Shown here in pieces: positions 1,014 through 34,358 of a DNA stretch of 38,473 nt (position 1 is the first letter of the stretch; each line of letters begins with the position of its first letter). The notes beneath the pieces were generated by a model. The model had not been told where the DNA came from, ran no database searches, and was given only the letters and a program-made list of their open reading frames with translations. The DNA comes from Actinomycetes bacterium (lineage in GTDB: Bacteria; Actinomycetota; Thermoleophilia; Miltoncostaeales; Miltoncostaeaceae), in assembly GCA_024639225.1 (NCBI GenBank), contig JAHEIS010000008.1, positions 1-38,473 on the forward strand. The letters are read 5' to 3'. The translations under genes and the position numbers were made by a program.

Positions 1014-2055
1014 CGGCGATCCCCAGTCCGATCGGGACGACCATGTCCGGCCCGCACTGGGCCGCGTCGTCGGAGGCGTTGTCGGGAAGGGCGTCGCCGG
1101 CTTGGGCCACGCGGAAGGGCACGCCCAGGAGGTTCGACAGCAGCTCGGGCAGTCCGGTCAGCTGAGCGGTGCCCCCGGCAATCACGAACTCGCGGATCGC
1201 CAAGGAGCCGTCGAGCCCCTGGTAGAACTCGAGCGAGGAGACGAGCTCGCTGAGGAAGTTGGAGATGGCCAGCTCGATGGCCGTGGCGACCTCGTCCTTG
1301 TCGCCGTCGGCCAGCGGACCGATCACGGCGGACCTCTTGAGCTCCTCGGCCTCATCCTCCTCCACGTCGAGCGCTTGGGCGACCGCGCGGGTCAGCGTGG
1401 CGCCGCCCCAGTCGATCACGCGCGTGAACTCACACGTCGTGCCGTCAGTGACGGCGAGGATCGTGCGTTCGGCGCCAATGGCCAGGGCGACCATCCCGGT
1501 GCCATCAGCCTCAGGTGCCTCGCGCCAGGCGGGATTGAGCGCTCGCAGGAGCGCCATCGCCTCAAGGTCGATTCCCAGCAGCGTGATGCCCGCCTCATCG
1601 CAGGCGTCGGCGAAGACTTGGACGAGGTCCTCGTAGACCACCGCGACCAGGACATCGTAGACAGCGTTGCCCTCGTCGTCGTCGCGGATCGCGAGCACAT
1701 GGTAGTCGAGTACGGCCTCTGTCACGGGAATCGGCAGGGCCTGCTGTGCCCGGAACACGACCGCGTCGCGCAGGTTCGCCGGATCCTCGACGCCTTCGAC
1801 CTCGAGCCGGCGGATACCGATGCGGTTGCTTCCGATTCCGAGGCGGACACGGTTGGTGGGCAGCTTGGCCTCGCGGAAGAAGTCGCGGAGCGCGGCGCTG
1901 AGGGCCGTGAGATCCTCGACTTCTCCGCTCCGGACCAGGCCGGGGGGCATCTTGCGGCTCGCGGCCTGCAACAGCTCGGGCTCATCACCGGGGATCACCC
2001 GGGCGGCGGCAAGGCGCGAGGACCCGATCTTCAGGCCGACAACATCGGCGGGCAT
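1003..2055 (-). CDS. pilM: PilM actin-like type IV pilus assembly ATPase
   Basis: 350 residues, soluble, no signal peptide. It begins with VVGLKIGSSRLAAARV, the phosphate-1-like strand of the FtsA/actin/HSP70 fold, and near the C-terminus has FVIAGGTAQLTGLPELLS, the adenosine-binding Gly-rich turn of PilM proteins. PilM sits at the cytoplasmic face of the pilus platform and binds the N-terminal motif of PilN. Length is typical of the family. The start is the ATG at 2055, fused to the stop of the upstream pilT in a TGATG arrangement (2053-2057), so the two are translationally coupled. In many genomes pilC lies between pilT and pilM; here it does not. Confidence 0.92.
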   Translation of the reverse strand: MPADVVGLKIGSSRLAAARVIPGDEPELLQAASRKMPPGLVRSGEVEDLTALSAALRDFFREAKLPTNRVRLGIGSNRIGIRRLEVEGVEDPANLRDAVVFRAQQALPIPVTEAVLDYHVLAIRDDDEGNAVYDVLVAVVYEDLVQVFADACDEAGITLLGIDLEAMALLRALNPAWREAPEADGTGMVALAIGAERTILAVTDGTTCEFTRVIDWGGATLTRAVAQALDVEEDEAEELKRSAVIGPLADGDKDEVATAIELAISNFLSELVSSLEFYQGLDGSLAIREFVIAGGTAQLTGLPELLSNLLGVPFRVAQAGDALPDNASDDAAQCGPDMVVPIGLGIADER

Positions 2056-3212
2056 CAGTTTCTCCCTGCAGTGCGAAGGCGCGCGGGCGCGCTTCCGCCG
2101 TTGGTGGGCGTGAACGACGACTCGCCGTCCTTGAGCAGGCCCTTGAGCTCGTCGTGGCGAGTGGTCGCCCCGAATGCGCTCTCGGGCGCGACGATTCGGC
2201 GGGACACGAGGTCGGCCAGCGACTGTTCAAGGGTCTGCATGCCCTTGTTCGAGCCGGTCTGGATCAGGGAGTAGACCTGCTCCAGCTTGGCCTGCCGGAT
2301 GAGGTTGGAGACGGCGCTGTCGGGGATCATCACCTCGACCGCGGCGACCCGGCCCGCGCGGTCGACCCGCGGGAGCAGCGTCTGGGACACGACGCCCCTG
2401 AGCGTGCCGGCGATCTGGGTGCGGATCTGCGACTGCTGGGCCGACGGGAAGACGTCGATGAGCCGGTCGACCGACGACGGGGCATCCTGGGTGTGGAGGG
2501 TGCCGAAGACGAGGTGGCCGGTCTCGGCGGCGGTGAGCGCGATCGCGATGGTCTCGAGGTCGCGCATCTCGCCGAGGAGGATCACGTCCGGGTCCTGGCG
2601 CAGCGCACCCCGCAGCGCCTCGGAGAATCCGGCGGCGTCGGTGCCGACCTCGCGCTGATTGATCATCGCGGTGCGGTGCTGGTGCACGAACTCGACCGGA
2701 TCCTCGATCGTGATGATGTGACACGGACGCGTGCGGTTGATCAGGTCGATCAACGAGGCGAGCGTCGTCGACTTGCCTGAACCGGTGGCTCCCGTGACGA
2801 GGACGAGCCCGCGCGGGAGCTTGGCGAACGAGGCGATCGACTCGGGCAGACCGAGCTCCTCGACGGGGACGATCTCGTCGGGGATGACGCGGAACGCCGC
2901 GCTCAGCGACTCGCGCTGGAAGTAGCTGTTCACACGGAAGCGGGCGACGCCCGGCAGGGCGTAGGAGAAGTCGACCTGGCGGTCGTTCTCGAGCGTGGAC
3001 TGGAGGCGGCTGCCGAGAATCCGGTAAAGCAGGGTCTCAGTGCCCTCCGGCCCGAGCTTCTCGTAGCCGTCCATCGTCCTGAGGTCGCCGTTGACGCGCA
3101 TCTGCGGCGGAAGGCCCGCCGTGATGTGGAGGTCGGATGCGCCCATCTCCACGGCTTGTGCGAGGAGGACCTCGACGGACATCTGGCTCTGGTCTGTGGG
3201 TTCGGTGCTCAC
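2055..3212 (-). CDS. pilT: PilT twitching-motility retraction ATPase (copy 1)
   Basis: 385 residues. An N-terminal PAS-like domain with the ASDLHIT motif (about 25-31) precedes the RecA-like core: Walker A GATGSGKST (141-149), Asp box IITIEDPVEF (166-175), Walker B DVILLGEMRD (209-218) and His box TGHLVFGTLHT (231-241). The C-terminus contains the PilT-type segment LIRQAKLEQVYSLIQTG followed by GMQTLEQSL. These features place it with PilT, the hexameric motor that depolymerises the pilus, rather than with PilB, because the N-terminal MshEN domain and the zinc-binding Cys pairs are absent. The GTG start at 3212 has only a weak Shine-Dalgarno. It leads the pilT-pilM-pilN-pilO unit and is divergent from the main pilin. 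Confidence 0.93.
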   Translation of the reverse strand: MSTEPTDQSQMSVEVLLAQAVEMGASDLHITAGLPPQMRVNGDLRTMDGYEKLGPEGTETLLYRILGSRLQSTLENDRQVDFSYALPGVARFRVNSYFQRESLSAAFRVIPDEIVPVEELGLPESIASFAKLPRGLVLVTGATGSGKSTTLASLIDLINRTRPCHIITIEDPVEFVHQHRTAMINQREVGTDAAGFSEALRGALRQDPDVILLGEMRDLETIAIALTAAETGHLVFGTLHTQDAPSSVDRLIDVFPSAQQSQIRTQIAGTLRGVVSQTLLPRVDRAGRVAAVEVMIPDSAVSNLIRQAKLEQVYSLIQTGSNKGMQTLEQSLADLVSRRIVAPESAFGATTRHDELKGLLKDGESSFTPTNGGSAPARLRTAGRN

Positions 3213-3413
3213 GGGTCTTTCTCGGGAGACGTGCCGGCGGGGGGTTTCCCGCGACGGTCCAGGTATCGGCAGCGCGATACCCGACCTGAAGCAGGCGCCT
3301 CAGGAGAGTGACGGCCCGGGTGGGCAGTCCCTCTAGATCGGCTCATCCGACTCAAGGTCGCCCTGATGGGGGCCGATCACCCGAGAGTCAAGCCCGATCC
3401 ACGGGCACCCCTG

Positions 3414-3421
3414 ACAAGGAG
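3414..3421 (+). promoter_or_regulatory. Pilin ribosome-binding site overlapping a CsrA-type motif
   Basis: ACAAGGAG lies 12 bases before the pilin ATG. AAGGAG is the ribosome-binding site and decides the start at 3434. The ACAAGGA part matches the core of the CsrA target consensus (ACARGGA), so CsrA, encoded at 13319-13522, could block translation here. Regulation by CsrA is an inference from the motif alone; no clear hairpin presenting the GGA was seen. Confidence 0.45.
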
Positions 3422-3433
3422 CACATCGTTCTC

Positions 3434-3817
3434 ATGATTCAGAAGCTCAAGGAGCGCATCGCCGCGCTTCGTTCCGAAGACGGGTTCACGCTCACCGAGC
3501 TGCTCGTCGTGATCATGATCATCGGCATCCTGCTGGCGATCGCCATTCCGTCCTACCTCGGCTTCCGCCAGGACGCCAATGAAACCGCGGCGCAGTCCAA
3601 CGTCCGCGCCGCCATCCCCGCCGTCGAGACCTACTTCGCCGACAACGGCACCTACGTCGGCATGGACCTCGCCGCCCTCCAGGCGATCGACGCCGGTATC
3701 CCGGCCATCACGATCGCCTCGGCCGCGGCGAACACGTACTGCGTCGAGATCACCAACGGTGGTCAGACTGCCAGCAAGGACGGCCCCCAGGCCGCCATCG
3801 CTCTCGCCGCCTGTTAG
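3434..3817 (+). CDS. pilA: Type IV pilin, probable major subunit
   Basis: 127 residues from the ATG at 3434, chosen for the AAGGAG at 3416-3421 and because it gives a normal 17-residue leader. The leader ends in Gly17, and the mature protein starts FTLTELLVVIMIIGILLAIA with Glu at mature position 5, the classic class III signal cut and N-methylated by PilD. The hydrophobic helix is followed by a small globular head with a single Cys within the head (TYCVEI) and a second as the last residue (ALAAC), which could form a C-terminal disulfide loop. It stands alone on the plus strand between divergent pilT and its own strong terminator, as expected for a highly expressed major pilin. The small size resembles PilA/GspG-like pilins. 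Confidence 0.9.
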   Translation: MIQKLKERIAALRSEDGFTLTELLVVIMIIGILLAIAIPSYLGFRQDANETAAQSNVRAAIPAVETYFADNGTYVGMDLAALQAIDAGIPAITIASAAANTYCVEITNGGQTASKDGPQAAIALAAC

Positions 3818-3840
3818 GCCTGAGCACTCAGTAGTCACCT

Positions 3841-3874
3841 CAGAGGGCGCGGTCTCCGCGCCCTCTGTCGTTTT
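3841..3874 (+). terminator. Strong intrinsic terminator after the pilin gene
   Basis: A perfect 12-bp stem (CAGAGGGCGCGG, 3841-3852, pairing with 3856-3867) with a 3-base loop is followed by TCGTTTT. It starts 23 bases after the pilin stop codon and precedes the next gene, so the pilin should be made from a monocistronic mRNA. Confidence 0.88.
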
Positions 3875-3916
3875 CCCCTCAAGTTGCCCAACTCTTGAGC
3901 CGATCAGTGGAGTGAG

Positions 3917-4456
3917 ATGTCTACTCAAAACGCAAAGAAAACGGGCCTGAGCCTGTGCGTCGTCGCCGCCGCCGCGGCAGCCTTCGCGGCCGCCGGCCCG
4001 GCGCTGACCGCGGACGACGATCCCGTCCCCGCCCCGACCCCCTCCGCCGTCGCTCCCGAGCTGCCCAAGACGCCGCCCGTCCTGGTCAAGGCGATCCGCC
4101 AGAACCAGGTGACGGTCGTGGCGATCCACGCCACAAACGCGATCTTCGACGAGCTCGCCCTACGCGAGGCACGCGCCGGCGCCGCTCGGGCGTCCGCCAA
4201 ATTCATGACCATCGACACGCGTAAGGAGAAGGTGATCGCGGCGTGGGTCAAGCGCTACCCGCAAGTCACCGGCTCCCCCACCATCCTCGTGTTTGGTCGC
4301 GGCTCTGAGGAGCCGATCAGCAGTCTGACGATCTACAGCGACCGCGAGGTCGTCGCGCAGGCGGTCACCAACGCCCGCGTCCGCGTGATCGCCGCCGCCC
4401 AGCGCAAGGCCAAGGCCAAGGCGAAGAACGCCCAGAAGAACACGAGCAAGGGCTGA
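3917..4456 (+). CDS. Exported thioredoxin-fold-like protein without CXXC
   Basis: 179 residues. A signal peptide (basic start, Ala-rich hydrophobic core to about residue 31) leads into a Pro-rich linker and then a domain resembling the thioredoxin fold: a strand QVTVVAIHATNA, a helix, a second strand KFMTIDT, and a GSPTILVF segment carrying the cis-Pro expected of the fold. The redox CXXC that normally follows the first strand is absent (NAIFDEL is there instead), so a dithiol oxidoreductase activity is unlikely. The tail is Lys/Ala-rich and very basic. Start ATG has GGAG four bases upstream. It follows the pilin terminator, and an imperfect inverted repeat CTCAAG/CTTGAG (3878-3899) sits before it. 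Fold assignment is by pattern only; function unknown, a pilus or envelope role is suggested only by position. Confidence 0.7.
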   Translation: MSTQNAKKTGLSLCVVAAAAAAFAAAGPALTADDDPVPAPTPSAVAPELPKTPPVLVKAIRQNQVTVVAIHATNAIFDELALREARAGAARASAKFMTIDTRKEKVIAAWVKRYPQVTGSPTILVFGRGSEEPISSLTIYSDREVVAQAVTNARVRVIAAAQRKAKAKAKNAQKNTSKG

Positions 4457-9805: not shown

Positions 9806-11287
9806 TCAGGACCCCCGGACGAACGTCATGGCTTCATCGGGGTCATCGACAATTTCGAAGACGGGTTGAGCGACGGTGGCCGGGCGGGAGACCCGGGGGG
9901 TCGCGACAGAGGCCGCGACGCGACCCGATCCCACGACGAGCTCGGGGCTGCCGACGCGCACGCCGAAGTGCAGGTGGGGAGCTCCGCCGGGCCACGGGGA
10001 GATCGTGGCGATCGTCTGGCCCGCCTTGACCTGCTGGCCGGAGAACACGACGACGTCGCTCACGTGGGCGTAGAAATAGGTGTCGGCGGTGCCGGCCAGC
10101 GTGATCGAGTAGCCGTAGATCTTCTTGCCGGAGGCCGTGACGCGCGTGCCGTCGGCCGCGTCTTGCCCGCTCACCCGGGTGATGACGCCGTCCTCGGTCG
10201 CGACGATCGGCGTACCCGGGGCCGCGGCGATGTCCACGGCGTTGCGGGACTGCCAGTCGGCTTGGTTGTGGGTGCCGTGGCCGGGTCGCCCGATCAGGGT
10301 CATCGGCGCGCCCGCGGGCAGTAGGACCGGCGCCACGCGACCACCGGGCGCCGTGCTGATCACCGGTGCGGAAAGGGGGCGCCAGAAGGTGGTCGCGCCC
10401 GATTCCTGTTCGAGGCCGGCCAGCTGGGACATCGTCTCCTGCAACTCACCGCGGGCCTTGGCCAGCTCGGCGCGCGTTTCCTTCTCCCGCTCGTCCAACT
10501 CGGAGATGCTCGACTCGGTCGCGGCGAACTCCGATGTGCTGATCGTCGCGTCACCGGCCGAGCGGGCCTGTGCCGTCCTGGCAGCGCGCAGGCCGGCCGC
10601 TTCGTCCTTGATCTCGGCGATGCGGGCCCGGGCCTCACGCATCTCCTTCGTCGTGGCGATGCGCCGCTGGGGCAGGTCGTCGACCTGGACCAGGGGGCCC
10701 GTCGGCGTCGTGGTCGGAACCGGGATGTCCAGGCTCTGACCGCCGGTCGACCCGAGGCGCTGGGCCAGCTCGATGACGTCGTTCACGTACCACTCGGCGT
10801 GGTTGTAGGCGAAAATCGCCCGCCGCAGATCGGTCTGGCCACCGGTGGCGGCCAGGTAGCGCGCCGCGGCGTAGACCGCGTCCTGCGGGTCCCACGGGTC
10901 GGCGATTCCGTCGCCGTCGGCGTCGACGCCCCAGCGATCCCAGGTGGAGGGGATGAACTGCATCCACCCGACGGCGCCGGCGGAGCTCGGCCCCATGTTG
11001 GTGCCGTAGTTGGTCTCGACTCGGTTGATCGCGCCGAGGATCTGCCACGGAATGCCATAGGCCGCACCCGCCTCCACCCAGAGGGCCCGGAGCTCCGGGC
11101 CGCTGAGGACGGGGTACTGGGCCGGGGGCGTCGAGAGCCCACGTTCGGGGTAGGCCAGCGAGCCGGGGCTGTTGGGGACGGTGTGACTCGGCAGCGGTTC
11201 CTGCCCGCTGGCCATCGTGGCGACACCGAGGGACGCGCCGACCGCCGCGGTGGCGGCGAACAGGCGTAGGCGGGCGCAACGGGTCAC
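9806..11287 (-). CDS. Secreted lytic transglycosylase fused to a LytM/M23-like domain
   Basis: 493 residues. A signal peptide (1-28, ending MASG) is followed by a transglycosylase domain (about 62-180) with INRVETNYG (putative catalytic Glu91) and GAVGWMQFIPSTWDRWG, a coiled coil (about 213-296), and a C-terminal LytM/M23 domain (about 318-450). In that domain the usual first zinc ligand of the HxGxD motif is replaced: the sequence is SRNAVDIAA with Arg at the His position, while the Asp, YAH and HLHFG are kept. The M23 part may therefore bind glycan or act as an activator rather than cut. Placed inside the pilus operon (GTGA overlap with pilT2), it probably opens or remodels peptidoglycan for pilus passage. 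That role is inference. Confidence 0.88.
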   Translation of the reverse strand: MTRCARLRLFAATAAVGASLGVATMASGQEPLPSHTVPNSPGSLAYPERGLSTPPAQYPVLSGPELRALWVEAGAAYGIPWQILGAINRVETNYGTNMGPSSAGAVGWMQFIPSTWDRWGVDADGDGIADPWDPQDAVYAAARYLAATGGQTDLRRAIFAYNHAEWYVNDVIELAQRLGSTGGQSLDIPVPTTTPTGPLVQVDDLPQRRIATTKEMREARARIAEIKDEAAGLRAARTAQARSAGDATISTSEFAATESSISELDEREKETRAELAKARGELQETMSQLAGLEQESGATTFWRPLSAPVISTAPGGRVAPVLLPAGAPMTLIGRPGHGTHNQADWQSRNAVDIAAAPGTPIVATEDGVITRVSGQDAADGTRVTASGKKIYGYSITLAGTADTYFYAHVSDVVVFSGQQVKAGQTIATISPWPGGAPHLHFGVRVGSPELVVGSGRVAASVATPRVSRPATVAQPVFEIVDDPDEAMTFVRGS

Positions 11288-30542: not shown

Positions 30543-31508
30543 TCAGCCTGGCTCCTGTCGCAGGACGACGCCGTGGCGGCGGGCGAGCGCCTCCTGGCGA
30601 CCGAAGCGGACGGCCCGGACCGCGGACTCGCGGTCGACGCCCGCCTCGATGAGCTGCTGGCGGTCGTCGCTCTCACGCGCCATCTTGAAGAACAGCCAGA
30701 TCAGCGTGATGCCGGTCAGGAGGGTCGTCTCGGCCATCATCACGCTGCCGGCGTGCACCTGATCCTCCAGCGCGCTGATGCCGAAGCGGGGATCCGCGAC
30801 GTCGTACGCGGGGTAGAAGACGAAGCCGGCGAACCAGAAGATGTTCCCCAGCACAGCCGTCACGGCCCGTGCCGCGGTGACGTAGATGAGCTTCGCGCCG
30901 GTCCCGAACCACGCGGGCGCGGGCAGGGTCTCGAGCACGGGCGACCACATCGCCATGCCGAATGCCACGAAGCTGATGTGCTCGAGCGTGTGCACGTATT
31001 CGTTGCGCAGGCTCAGCTCATAGAGCGCCCGGGAGTGCCAGAGAAAGAGATTGGCGGACCAGAGCGGGAGCGCGATCGCAGGGTGGGTGATCACGCGGGC
31101 CCGGAGCAGGAACCGGTTCTTGAGCAGGGGTTGGATGACCGGTCCGGTGATCCCCATCACCAGGAGCACCGCGGCGATGTCGCCCAGCAGGACGTGCTGG
31201 AGCATGTGCACCCAGAACAGGTCGCTCTCCCCGATGTGGTCGATCGGCGAGACGATCGCCAGCAGCGCGATCGTCGTGCCGGCGGCGAAGGACCACACCC
31301 GCCAGGCCGGCACCCGCCCGCCGAGCCGGCGAACGCGGAGGGCGTAGAACGCGGCGAACAGAACGAGCGGGGCGAACTGCAGGGGCGAGAACGACCATTC
31401 GAGCCACCACTCCCTGCGCGTCTCCGATTGACCGCCGTGCGCGGCCGCCGCGGGCGACAGAACCGCGAGCGCAGCGAGCGCGGCGACGAGAGCGGAGAGC
31501 CTCACCAC
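30543..31508 (-). CDS. ctaG: CtaG cytochrome c oxidase (caa3-type) assembly factor
   Basis: 321 residues. A signal-like hydrophobic start (to about residue 23) and then about seven transmembrane helices. Motifs of the caa3_CtaG family: SPIDHIGESDLFWVHMLQHVLLGDIAAVLLVMG (with conserved His), LFLWHSRALYELSLR, HTLEHISFVAFGMAMWSPV, and PAYDVADPRFGISALEDQVHAGSVMM. Implicated in maturing the oxidase in Gram-positive bacteria, probably in copper insertion. No oxidase genes are in the window. Its GTG start overlaps the stop of the upstream membrane protein by 7 bases, so the two form an operon. Confidence 0.9.
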   Translation of the reverse strand: MVRLSALVAALAALAVLSPAAAAHGGQSETRREWWLEWSFSPLQFAPLVLFAAFYALRVRRLGGRVPAWRVWSFAAGTTIALLAIVSPIDHIGESDLFWVHMLQHVLLGDIAAVLLVMGITGPVIQPLLKNRFLLRARVITHPAIALPLWSANLFLWHSRALYELSLRNEYVHTLEHISFVAFGMAMWSPVLETLPAPAWFGTGAKLIYVTAARAVTAVLGNIFWFAGFVFYPAYDVADPRFGISALEDQVHAGSVMMAETTLLTGITLIWLFFKMARESDDRQQLIEAGVDRESAVRAVRFGRQEALARRHGVVLRQEPG

Positions 31509-32263
31509 GAGAGCCTCTGGCGGGCGCGCATGATCTGCGCCAGCACCAGCGGTGCCAGAGCAAGAGCGCAGATGTCGAAGAACACGTACCCCGCCGCGAT
31601 ACCGCTGGGAGGGTTGCCGTTGGTGATGCCGGTCCCGGGCAGCTCCTCAGCCCACGTCCAGGTGCCGATCCAGGTGCCGTAGAGCTCCAGGTAGGCGACC
31701 ATCACGAAGACTCCAGCATAGACCGTGGGGGCCCGGCCACGCAGCAGGAAGACGATCAGAAACGCGACCCCGATGGCGCCGGCGACGTCGGAGCGCGGCA
31801 GAACGGTGAGGCCGAGTACTGCCCATGTGCCGGCGGCCAGAGCGACCGCCAGGACGAAGCGCCGGGCATTGCGCCGCACGATGCCGATCTCCGATATCCG
31901 CAGTCCGGTGAGATAGACGATGCCGTGTCCCGGCGGCACGAAGAGCGGGAGGTTGGACAGCCGGTACTCGTACGCCCCCCAGATCAGCGACCCGATGACC
32001 TCGGCGATGGTCGCGACGACGATGACGACCAGGGTGCGGGTACGTTCGATCGGCGAGAGCGGAACCAGGCTCATGAGAAGAAAGCCTGTGACGACCAGCC
32101 CAAGCAGATGCTGCTCCGCCAGGCCGCCCTGGCTGTCCAACGCCAGGCCGGCCGTCGTCAGGATGAAGACCAACACGACGTACGGCAGTGGGCGGCTGAA
32201 TGCCTGTCGCACCGGGCGCGGGAGGCTGTCCGCGGTGCGGGTCCTGGACTGCTGGGTGATCAC
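31502..32263 (-). CDS. Multi-pass membrane protein of unknown function
   Basis: 253 residues from a GTG at 32263. About seven hydrophobic helices; no soluble domain. Marked segments: LIWGAYEYRLSNLPLFVPPGHGIVYLTGL and LELYGTWIGTWTWAEELP...PSGIAAGYVFFDICALALA, in which aromatic, Glu and His residues are clustered near the membrane face. I do not recognise the family; the general look recalls carotenoid-biosynthesis or TraB-like membrane enzymes, without firm support. Coupled to ctaG by overlap, so a role in respiration or heme/copper supply is possible. It is divergent from the B12 riboswitch operon. Confidence 0.7.
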   Translation of the reverse strand: MITQQSRTRTADSLPRPVRQAFSRPLPYVVLVFILTTAGLALDSQGGLAEQHLLGLVVTGFLLMSLVPLSPIERTRTLVVIVVATIAEVIGSLIWGAYEYRLSNLPLFVPPGHGIVYLTGLRISEIGIVRRNARRFVLAVALAAGTWAVLGLTVLPRSDVAGAIGVAFLIVFLLRGRAPTVYAGVFVMVAYLELYGTWIGTWTWAEELPGTGITNGNPPSGIAAGYVFFDICALALAPLVLAQIMRARQRLSW

Positions 32264-32269
32264 CTGCTC

Positions 32270-32332: not shown

Positions 32333-32362
32333 TCGACACCCGCTCGGAACCTCGGGTAGCCT
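32333..32362 (+). promoter_or_regulatory. Promoter of the B12 riboswitch operon
   Basis: -35 TCGACA (32333-32338, five of six matches to TTGACA), an 18-base spacer, and -10 TAGCCT (32357-32362). Transcription would start near 32369, about 16 bases before the first riboswitch helix. Confidence 0.5.
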
Positions 32363-32384
32363 GCCCGCCGACAACCGAAGACGC

Positions 32385-32532
32385 GCCCGGGCGTGGGGAA
32401 GTCGGTGAGATTCCGACGCGGTCCCGCCACTGTGATCCGGAAGCGTTCCCACACGGCAGATGCCGGCCACTGGGGAGACCTGGGAAGGCCGTGGGTACGC
32501 GTCGACCGGAAGCCAGGACATCCACACCGGGC
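32385..32532 (+). promoter_or_regulatory. Cobalamin (AdoCbl/B12) riboswitch
   Basis: The conserved core reads GGGGAAGTCGGTGAGATTCC followed by GACGCGGTCCCGCCACTGT (32396-32433), and the B12 box is GGAAGCCAGGACATCC (32508-32523). The closing helix P1 pairs 32385-32390 with 32527-32532 and 32393-32396 with 32522-32525. Downstream, TCCTCGAGGA (32544-32553) is self-complementary and overlaps the ribosome-binding site GAGGAAGGA (32549-32557), so ligand binding could shut off translation. This element normally turns off B12 synthesis or uptake genes when B12 is plentiful; here it precedes two exported proteins. Confidence 0.93.
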
Positions 32533-32562
32533 GCACATCACGATCCTCGAGGAAGGACCCAC

Positions 32563-33513
32563 GTGCTCACACTCCGCCGTGCCGCGGTCGCTGTCGCGCT
32601 TGCCTGCGCCCTCCCCACCGCCGCCCTGGCGGCACCCGCTTCCGCGACGCTCCGCGTTGAAGGTGCCGATGCGACGCTGATCCCGGAGCTGCGTCAGCCG
32701 AGCGACACGACCCTGGTCGCCGACCGGCTCGGACCGGTCCGCACCGTCGAAGGACCCACCGCGCTCGGCCAGCTCATCCGGGCCGGCGTCCGCCGGAACG
32801 TCTCGGTGAGAACGAGCTTCTCAACCGCATTCGGGCCCGACCCCCTCGTCGCGGTCGAGCGGATCGGCCCGGACGACCAGGGCGAGAACTTCGAGGGCCC
32901 GGCCTTCTGGGTCTTCAAGGTCAACCACGCATCCGCCCCGGTCGCCGCCAATCAGCTGGCGCTCAAGGACGGCGACGAGGTGCTCTGGTACTTCACCTCG
33001 AACTTCTCCGCGGCCGAACTGGACATGACCGTCCCGCGGGCGAACCTCCGGACGGGGCGCACGTTCACCGTCTCGGTGCGCGCCTGGGACGCCGAGGGCG
33101 TCGCCTCGCCCGCCTCCGGTGCCGTCGTGCGCTACGGATCGGTCGAGAAGACCGCCGGCCGGGACGGACGCGTGCGCTTCACCGCGCGCACGGGCACCCG
33201 GAGCATCCGCGCCACCCGCACCGACGCCGCGACCGGCGCCCATGACATCCGGAGCGCCACGAAGGAGATCTGCGGCCTGCCGCCGGGGGCCACGACCTGC
33301 CCCCGGCCGCGGCCCAACGGTGCCAGCCTGCGTCTGGTGGTCAACGGCGTGAGCACCAAGGGATGGGCCCGGACCCTGCCCCGCCTGCGTGCCGTCCTGG
33401 CGGGCGCGCTCGCCGATGATGACCGCGCCGCCATCGCCTGGCGAGGCCGGGTCTGGCGTGGCTCGGGCCCGGTCGGCAACGTGGCCCGCAACCTCGTTCG
33501 GCGCTTCGGATGA
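32563..33513 (+). CDS. Exported DUF4430 (transcobalamin beta-domain-like) protein
   Basis: 316 residues from the GTG at 32563 (GAGGAAGGA upstream). Signal peptide 1-24 (RRAAVAVALACALPTAALAA). A DUF4430-type domain follows (about 27-150): ATLRVEGADATLI, EGPTALGQLIRAGVRRNV, FGPDPLVAVERIG, FWVFKVNHASAPVAANQLALKDGDEVLWYF, the pattern of the C-terminal beta domain of animal transcobalamin and intrinsic factor. Residues about 150-250 look like an Ig-like/Big domain; the C-terminal 60 residues are basic and unassigned, with two Cys (EICGLPPGATTCPRP). No membrane anchor or sortase motif is visible. The preceding B12 riboswitch and the coupled barrel protein suggest extracellular corrinoid binding. 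Confidence 0.88.
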   Translation: MLTLRRAAVAVALACALPTAALAAPASATLRVEGADATLIPELRQPSDTTLVADRLGPVRTVEGPTALGQLIRAGVRRNVSVRTSFSTAFGPDPLVAVERIGPDDQGENFEGPAFWVFKVNHASAPVAANQLALKDGDEVLWYFTSNFSAAELDMTVPRANLRTGRTFTVSVRAWDAEGVASPASGAVVRYGSVEKTAGRDGRVRFTARTGTRSIRATRTDAATGAHDIRSATKEICGLPPGATTCPRPRPNGASLRLVVNGVSTKGWARTLPRLRAVLAGALADDDRAAIAWRGRVWRGSGPVGNVARNLVRRFG

Positions 33514-34358
33514 GACTCCGGGTCGTGGCCGCGCTCGCCGCGTCAGCCGTCGTCGTCCCGACCGCGGCGGCGGCGCCCTCGTCGGCCGACAGGGCGTCGG
33601 CCGAACGCGGGGCGAGCTGGCTCGCCTCCCAGAGCGGACGGGTGGACGGCGGCCCGCTGGCTGACCTGATCGTCTCTCTTCGGCAGACCGGCACCGCGCG
33701 ACGGGAGCTACGCGGGCGGGTTCGCGCACTCGCCCGCGACGGTCGCTCCTACGGCCGCGGAGCGGGACGGGCAGCCAAGGTCGCCCGGGCCGCCCTGGCC
33801 GTCGGGGCGGACCCGCGACGTTTCGGCCGGGTCGACTATCTCGCGCGTATCGACGGCGACTACCGTCGTGGCCGCTATGGGCGCAACGCCTTCGACCACG
33901 CGCTGGCGATCATCGTCCTCCGCGAGGCGGGGCGTCCGGTTCCCCGCGCGGCGCTGCGCACGATCGCCCGGTCCCGGGGTCAGGGCGGGTGGGGTCTGGC
34001 GATGACGCGCTCGGCGCCGGATGATGTCGATGCGACCGCTGTCCTGATCGAGGCAATGCGCGCGGCGGGCGTCGGTCGGAACAACCGCGCCCTCCGTGCG
34101 GCCCGGAGCTGGCTCCTGCGCCAGCGCCGAGCCGGCGGCGCCTATCCGTCGCGCCCCGGACGGCCCGCGGATGCCAACTCGACGGCGGCGGCGCTCCGCG
34201 CACTCGTGGCAATGCGCGACCGCCGGGCCCCAGCGACGGCGCGCGCGCTGCGGAGCTTCCAGCGACCCGACGGTCACTTCACCTGGCAGGCGGCGCGCCC
34301 GGGAAGCCCCCTGCTGGCGACGATCGACGCAGTGGGTGCTCTCACGTACCGGGGCTAG
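33510..34358 (+). CDS. Exported alpha/alpha-barrel protein (transcobalamin alpha-domain-like)
   Basis: 282 residues; ATG at 33510 overlaps the upstream stop (ATGA). Signal peptide about 1-21. The rest is helical with repeats of the terpene-cyclase/prenyltransferase alpha/alpha toroid: GASWLASQS, GRNAFDHALAIIVLREAG, GGWGLAMTRSAPDDVDATAVLIEAMRAAG, ARSWLLRQRRAGGAYPSRPG, ADANSTAAALRALVAMRD, LRSFQRPDGHFTW. The DXXDDTA of cyclases is missing. The same fold forms the alpha domain of transcobalamin and intrinsic factor, which grips B12 together with the beta (DUF4430) domain. Here the two domains are separate, coupled genes. B12 binding is inferred from the riboswitch and fold pairing. Confidence 0.85.
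   Translation: MRLRVVAALAASAVVVPTAAAAPSSADRASAERGASWLASQSGRVDGGPLADLIVSLRQTGTARRELRGRVRALARDGRSYGRGAGRAAKVARAALAVGADPRRFGRVDYLARIDGDYRRGRYGRNAFDHALAIIVLREAGRPVPRAALRTIARSRGQGGWGLAMTRSAPDDVDATAVLIEAMRAAGVGRNNRALRAARSWLLRQRRAGGAYPSRPGRPADANSTAAALRALVAMRDRRAPATARALRSFQRPDGHFTWQAARPGSPLLATIDAVGALTYRG

Follow-up and report, generated by a model that had tools for sequence, protein, structure and literature searches.

A riboswitch-preceded DUF4430/toroid protein pair as the probable extracytoplasmic B12-capture part of an ECF-CbrT importer

In animals, transcobalamin and intrinsic factor hold vitamin B12 between two domains. Many Gram-positive bacteria need B12 yet lack BtuCDF. In the classical description of ECF transporters, soluble binding proteins play no part.

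A transcobalamin-like clade of SLBB domains was defined by Burroughs et al. in 2007 (PMC1796856), who reported bacterial fusions of this domain to a toroid in both orders, operons that also contain second paralogues and CbiO/CbiQ, and hosts that do not synthesise B12; B12 scavenging was proposed for the SLBB/toroid proteins. Among ECF transporters, experiments have demonstrated both binding and import of cobalamin and of cobinamide for the S-component CbrT (PMC5997447), and riboswitch-preceded ECF modules of freshwater Actinobacteria were predicted to be B12 importers in a 2017 paper (PMC5301498). In the openly accessible literature searched, we found no functional study of DUF4430/toroid, CbrT-linked or SCO2321–2325 proteins. 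Here we compare these systems with a gene pair located behind a cobalamin riboswitch on contig JAHEIS010000008.1 of a bacterium from the family Miltoncostaeaceae; the whole stretch of 38,473 nucleotides that was analysed is referred to below as the window.

The riboswitch and the gene pair of the window

A cobalamin riboswitch aptamer was identified with cmscan on the forward strand at positions 32395–32523 of the window. The match to RF00174 covers model positions 45–169 and scores 76.8 bits (gathering score 31.5; E 2.2e-17), with the B12 box near positions 32508–32523. The textbook cobalamin aptamer that a sequence-only reading of this DNA had placed upstream of the pair is thus borne out, core and B12 box included. 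The first gene of the pair starts 40 nt after the end of the aptamer. A Shine-Dalgarno-like sequence, GAGGAAGG (32549–32556, forward strand), lies 6 nt before the GTG start codon at 32563 and is the probable target of the riboswitch control. Since no intrinsic terminator was found in the leader of the pair, translational control appears likelier than transcriptional control. Predicted folding of the leader RNA was not more stable than that of shuffled sequences, and no expression platform could be assigned. An open frame crosses the riboswitch in the antisense direction, and on the other side of it a divergent gene (31502–32266, reverse strand) codes for a membrane protein without Pfam match, a homologue of which holds the same position beside the pair in locus L087 (7717–8670).

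The first gene (32563–33513, forward strand) encodes an exported protein of 316 aa containing a DUF4430, or transcobalamin-like beta, domain (PF14478; 34.0 bits against a cut-off of 23.8, E 4e-8), the core of which corresponds to positions 32872–32997. The second gene (33510–34358, forward strand) encodes an exported alpha/alpha-toroid protein of 282 aa that contains neither cysteine nor a complete DxDD motif. Its ATG start codon at 33510 lies within an ATGA stop/start overlap with the first gene (33510–33513), which suggests translational coupling of the two. By eye, the N-termini of both proteins resemble Sec signal peptides and have no clear lipobox. Compared with its 389-aa homologue in L087 (8784–9953), the DUF4430 protein of the window is shorter by approximately 75 residues at the C-terminus, a part that in the proteins of relatives yields a weak bacterial Ig-like match. 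The short C-terminus, together with the stop codon that abuts the toroid start, points to a deletion either in the window lineage or in the assembly.

AlphaFold modelling of the DUF4430 protein from 2 sequences reached a pLDDT of only 41, too poor for a fold search to bear on the beta-grasp fold with hairpin insert that marks the transcobalamin-like SLBB clade. When a profile of 37 DUF4430 cores was compared with the PDB, the first-ranked entry was 3U7Z (E 0.028), followed by the C-terminal domain of haptocorrin (E 0.07). The toroid protein showed weak Pfam similarity to SQHop_cyclase_N (24.5 bits, cut-off 26.2) and, in a second cyclase/prenyltransferase comparison, 14.9 bits against a cut-off of 26.5. 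The profile of its family matches squalene-hopene cyclase repeats (E 1.5e-39), so that at the sequence level the resemblance is to these repeats and not to transcobalamin. A model of modest quality built from 3 sequences (pLDDT 58.5, pTM 0.65) contains 12 helices. The best five Foldseek hits of this model in the PDB were transcobalamins (E 0.03–0.08, probability 0.97–0.99, TM about 0.4; the best with E 0.03 and TM 0.37), a result that falls short of significance and is suggestive of a transcobalamin-like fold.

The DUF4430 domain, the cyclase-repeat profile and the 12-helix model agree with the sequence-only description of two ATGA-coupled exported proteins, one with a DUF4430 domain and one with a toroid. 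The profile search that this reading had proposed for both proteins was successful for DUF4430, which exceeds the PF14478 cut-off, and not for PF01122, which is matched by neither protein up to E 1.

A second riboswitch operon and its distribution

The genome containing the window is a 2.47 Mb draft (92% complete, 6% contamination) in which only two cobalamin riboswitches were found, that of the window included. The other one, and the only other DUF4430 gene of the genome, sit together on another contig (G000:C24), in the order riboswitch (100 bits), DUF4430 lipoprotein with a relaxed lipobox (LATAC, by eye), EcfT (CbiQ match, E 3e-8), fused double ABC ATPase and S-component. A profile built from 16 relatives of the S-component retrieved a single significant PDB entry, 6FNP, which is CbrT (E 6e-26). 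The operon contains the parts of an ECF-CbrT transporter, namely a CbrT-like S-component, an EcfT/CbiQ protein and two ABC domains. The earlier remark that no ECF gene is linked to the pair holds for the contig of the window but not for the genome. Four matches to the B12-binding domain were also found in this genome, as opposed to none for PF01497 (Peripla_BP_2, BtuF-type) and none, at 92% completeness, for CbiC, a single marker of corrinoid synthesis. Taken together, these results indicate that B12 is used by the organism but apparently not synthesised, and that a classical protein for binding it is absent.

Homologous loci of related genomes bring the two operons together. Loci L067, L068, L069, L081 and L083 have the order riboswitch, window-type DUF4430, lipoprotein-type DUF4430, EcfT, EcfA, EcfS and toroid, and L074 and L085 are close variants of the same full operon. 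Within the family to which the window belongs, these genes are spread over two operons, each with a riboswitch. The two adjoin in L066 (genome G025) and are about 0.7 Mb apart in G007; as the latter genome consists of a single contig, the separation does not stem from the assembly. In the window, L075, L077 and L079, the split unit keeps the toroid together with DUF4430 and nothing else. In L070, DUF4430 and toroid are fused in one chain of 658 aa behind a cobalamin riboswitch, followed by an S-component whose match is weak and which is labelled DUF6580-like by resemblance only. L071 was also considered as a natural fusion and was ruled out; its DNA shows two genes, the toroid gene being coupled to a lipoprotein-type DUF4430 gene through a GTGA overlap. 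Loci of the L084 type carry DUF4430 and ECF genes with no toroid found nearby, indicating that the toroid is not always needed. A riboswitch precedes the DUF4430/toroid genes in 11 of the 12 such loci scanned, and the toroid-ECF set recurs through the phylum (L119–L121, L125, L127, L131 and the SCO2321-family loci). The riboswitch-pair synteny for which the sequence-only reading proposed a survey is kept in relatives, either in the full operon with the ECF set or in split operons.

Several loci displayed further variations. L127 encodes, behind an AdoCbl riboswitch, a chain of 805 aa (1642–4056, forward strand) with a toroid match, a sortase-like tail (MPATGD) and two DUF4430-like stretches that are visible by eye and missed by Pfam; judging from these features, it is probably a wall-anchored B12 catcher. 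Very large surface-type proteins (1537–1834 aa) are encoded in L122 (6910–12411, reverse strand) and L123 (2836–7446, forward strand), where they adjoin a DUF4430 and CbrT-like ECF operon; they contain two or three DUF4430 domains and match beta-propellers weakly. An AdoCbl-II riboswitch is present in L123. In L073, two divergent cobalamin riboswitches (10418–10634, reverse strand, and 10600–10806, forward strand; the matches overlap by 35 bases) lie between a DUF4430 gene and a toroid gene. Back-to-back divergent cobalamin riboswitches likewise occur at G111:C4 and G070:C129.

In a survey of 119 genomes of the class, DUF4430 was found in 56 and a CbrT-like S-component in 54, with 53 genomes containing both; the S-component is thus present in 53/56 genomes with DUF4430 and in 1/63 without it (Fisher p 6e-29, a value inflated by shared ancestry). 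For at least 56 of the 99 DUF4430 genes in these genomes, a cobalamin riboswitch in the same orientation lies upstream at a distance of no more than 2.5 kb, a frequency which argues against chance linkage. In 46 of the 99 cases a toroid homologue is encoded on the same strand at a distance of up to 7 kb, as a rule downstream. A search for related loci with a set of closely related toroids gave three loci only. Across the class, DUF4430 showed no anti-correlation with PF01497 proteins in general (p 1.0), as this family takes in siderophore binders. In nine DUF4430-free genomes of one family, a riboswitch directly precedes a PF01497 (BtuF-type) gene, which suggests that one capture system has been replaced by the other in these genomes.

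Possible functions of the pair

In view of the second operon, the operons of relatives, the co-occurrence, the L070 fusion and the lack of BtuF and CbiC matches, the most likely role of the pair is that of the extracytoplasmic B12-capture half of an ECF-CbrT cobalamin importer, an assignment which we consider probable. In such a system, low intracellular cobalamin would permit synthesis of both proteins, if the OFF-switch logic of the riboswitch class applies, probably by freeing the ribosome-binding site, as a terminator is absent. After export, one corrinoid would be enclosed between the DUF4430 beta domain and the toroid, two separate chains acting like the domains of transcobalamin and intrinsic factor. 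The corrinoid would then be handed to the CbrT-like S-component, probably via the DUF4430 lipoprotein encoded on C24, and import would be powered by EcfT and the double ATPase.

That B12 is held between the two chains, as in the animal carriers, has roughly even odds; the matches behind the transcobalamin likeness are low in strength (E 0.03 and TM 0.37 for the toroid, E 0.07 for DUF4430 and haptocorrin). We give the same balanced odds to the more specific picture of a two-subunit bacterial transcobalamin, in which the separate chains would hold extracellular B12 and deliver it to an S-component of the CbrT type. The pair could instead serve the same uptake system without enclosing the ligand, the DUF4430 protein alone binding the corrinoid or docking on the S-component and the toroid acting as a scaffold or wall-binding protein. 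The L084 operon, with two DUF4430 proteins and ECF genes but no toroid found, is in line with this, as are the partnership of the toroid with a lipoprotein-type DUF4430 protein in L071 and the large multi-DUF4430 surface proteins of L122 and L123, for which no toroid was detected. However, the toroid is kept with DUF4430 alone in the split units of the window, L075, L077 and L079, the two are naturally fused in L070, and transcobalamins top the fold search of the toroid; we regard this arrangement as unlikely.

More doubtful still is the reading in which the imported ligand is not cobalamin but, for example, cobalt or a precursor of corrinoids. CbiQ/CbiO-type parts are common to cobalt importers, and cobinamide is likewise moved by CbrT (PMC5997447). 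Against this stand the CbrT-like nature of the S-component, for which CbrT is the sole strong PDB match, and the control by a cobalamin riboswitch; moreover, cobalt alone would be less useful to a genome without CbiC, the corrinoid synthesis marker. The toroid might also be a terpene cyclase or prenyltransferase-type enzyme with an incidental position behind the riboswitch, squalene-hopene cyclase repeats being its top sequence matches. Yet every Pfam match is under the cut-off, and a complete DxDD motif is found in 0/16 family members, making cyclase function unlikely; the N-terminus of the toroid is signal-peptide-like, and the place of its gene beside DUF4430 genes, ECF genes and B12 riboswitches is conserved across the phylum. 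Given the missing motif, the genomic context and the signal-peptide-like N-termini, the cyclase reading was rejected as very improbable.

The computations support, as the best reading, the idea of a transcobalamin-like, riboswitch-controlled pair of separate exported chains. The stand-alone capture device of a new kind that had also been suggested gives way to the role in an ECF-CbrT importer, as a CbrT-like ECF set with its own cobalamin riboswitch is present in the genome and shares one operon with the pair in relatives. Nor is the capture idea itself new: B12 scavenging by DUF4430-type/toroid proteins was predicted in 2007, in a fused-protein version (PMC1796856). What is new is the arrangement as two chains in a riboswitch unit that is separate from the ECF genes, the identification of the S-component as CbrT-like, and the finding that DUF4430 and CbrT-like S-components occur together almost without exception. 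These results tie DUF4430 and toroid proteins, throughout the phylum, to B12 riboswitches and to a B12 importer subunit of known structure. The small pair offers a direct testbed for the 2007 prediction and for the proposal that the B12 carriers of animals are of bacterial origin. If the picture of a two-subunit transcobalamin is correct, a transporter class usually described as needing no soluble binding protein would have a dedicated extracytoplasmic capture complex, and the pair would be a living form near the proposed bacterial source of intrinsic factor and transcobalamin.

Comparison with known systems

BtuG and BtuH (PMC6143338, PMC8941943), lipoproteins of Bacteroides, likewise catch B12 at the cell surface and serve an importer; compared here by description only, they belong to an outer-membrane system in a different phylum. 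In the SCO2321/SCO2322 families of Streptomyces (NF053823, NF040672), a toroid is encoded beside a small exported protein, EcfT, EcfA and EcfS; SCO2321 differs in having a membrane anchor at its end. The window toroid scores 40.4 bits with NF053823 (cut-off 300) and is not a member of the SCO2321 family, and a profile comparison using two SCO2322 sequences only revealed no detectable similarity to DUF4430. At one SCO2321-family locus (L117: 7694–7785, reverse strand), an AdoCbl-II-like leader scores 33.2 bits, under the Rfam gathering score of 36.5, and would therefore be missed by routine annotation; it is probably an AdoCbl-II riboswitch.

With ECF-CbrT of Lactobacillus delbrueckii (6FNP; PMC5997447) the window genome shares a homologous S-component (E 6e-26), EcfT and the ATPases. 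In the main text of the ECF-CbrT paper CbrT itself is the binding subunit and extracellular capture proteins are unmentioned, whereas in the window genome a DUF4430 and a toroid protein acting outside the cytoplasm are added. Transcobalamin, intrinsic factor and haptocorrin also combine a toroid with a DUF4430-type beta domain, a likeness to which the fold search and the profile point weakly; the animal carriers are single chains with the toroid first, whereas the window has two chains with DUF4430 first and no PF01122 match.

The operons of Burroughs et al. (PMC1796856) resemble the present system in their secreted DUF4430-type domain and toroid, second DUF4430 paralogue, CbiO/CbiQ and lack of B12 synthesis. 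DUF4430, toroid and CbiO/CbiQ genes stand together in the relatives, the ECF genes of the window genome being on another contig, and the host is likewise an apparent non-synthesiser as judged from the lack of a CbiC match (one marker, 92% complete genome). In the 2007 account, however, the toroid is fused to the SLBB domain and riboswitches are unmentioned, whereas the pair of the window consists of separate chains encoded behind a riboswitch of their own, apart from the ECF genes.
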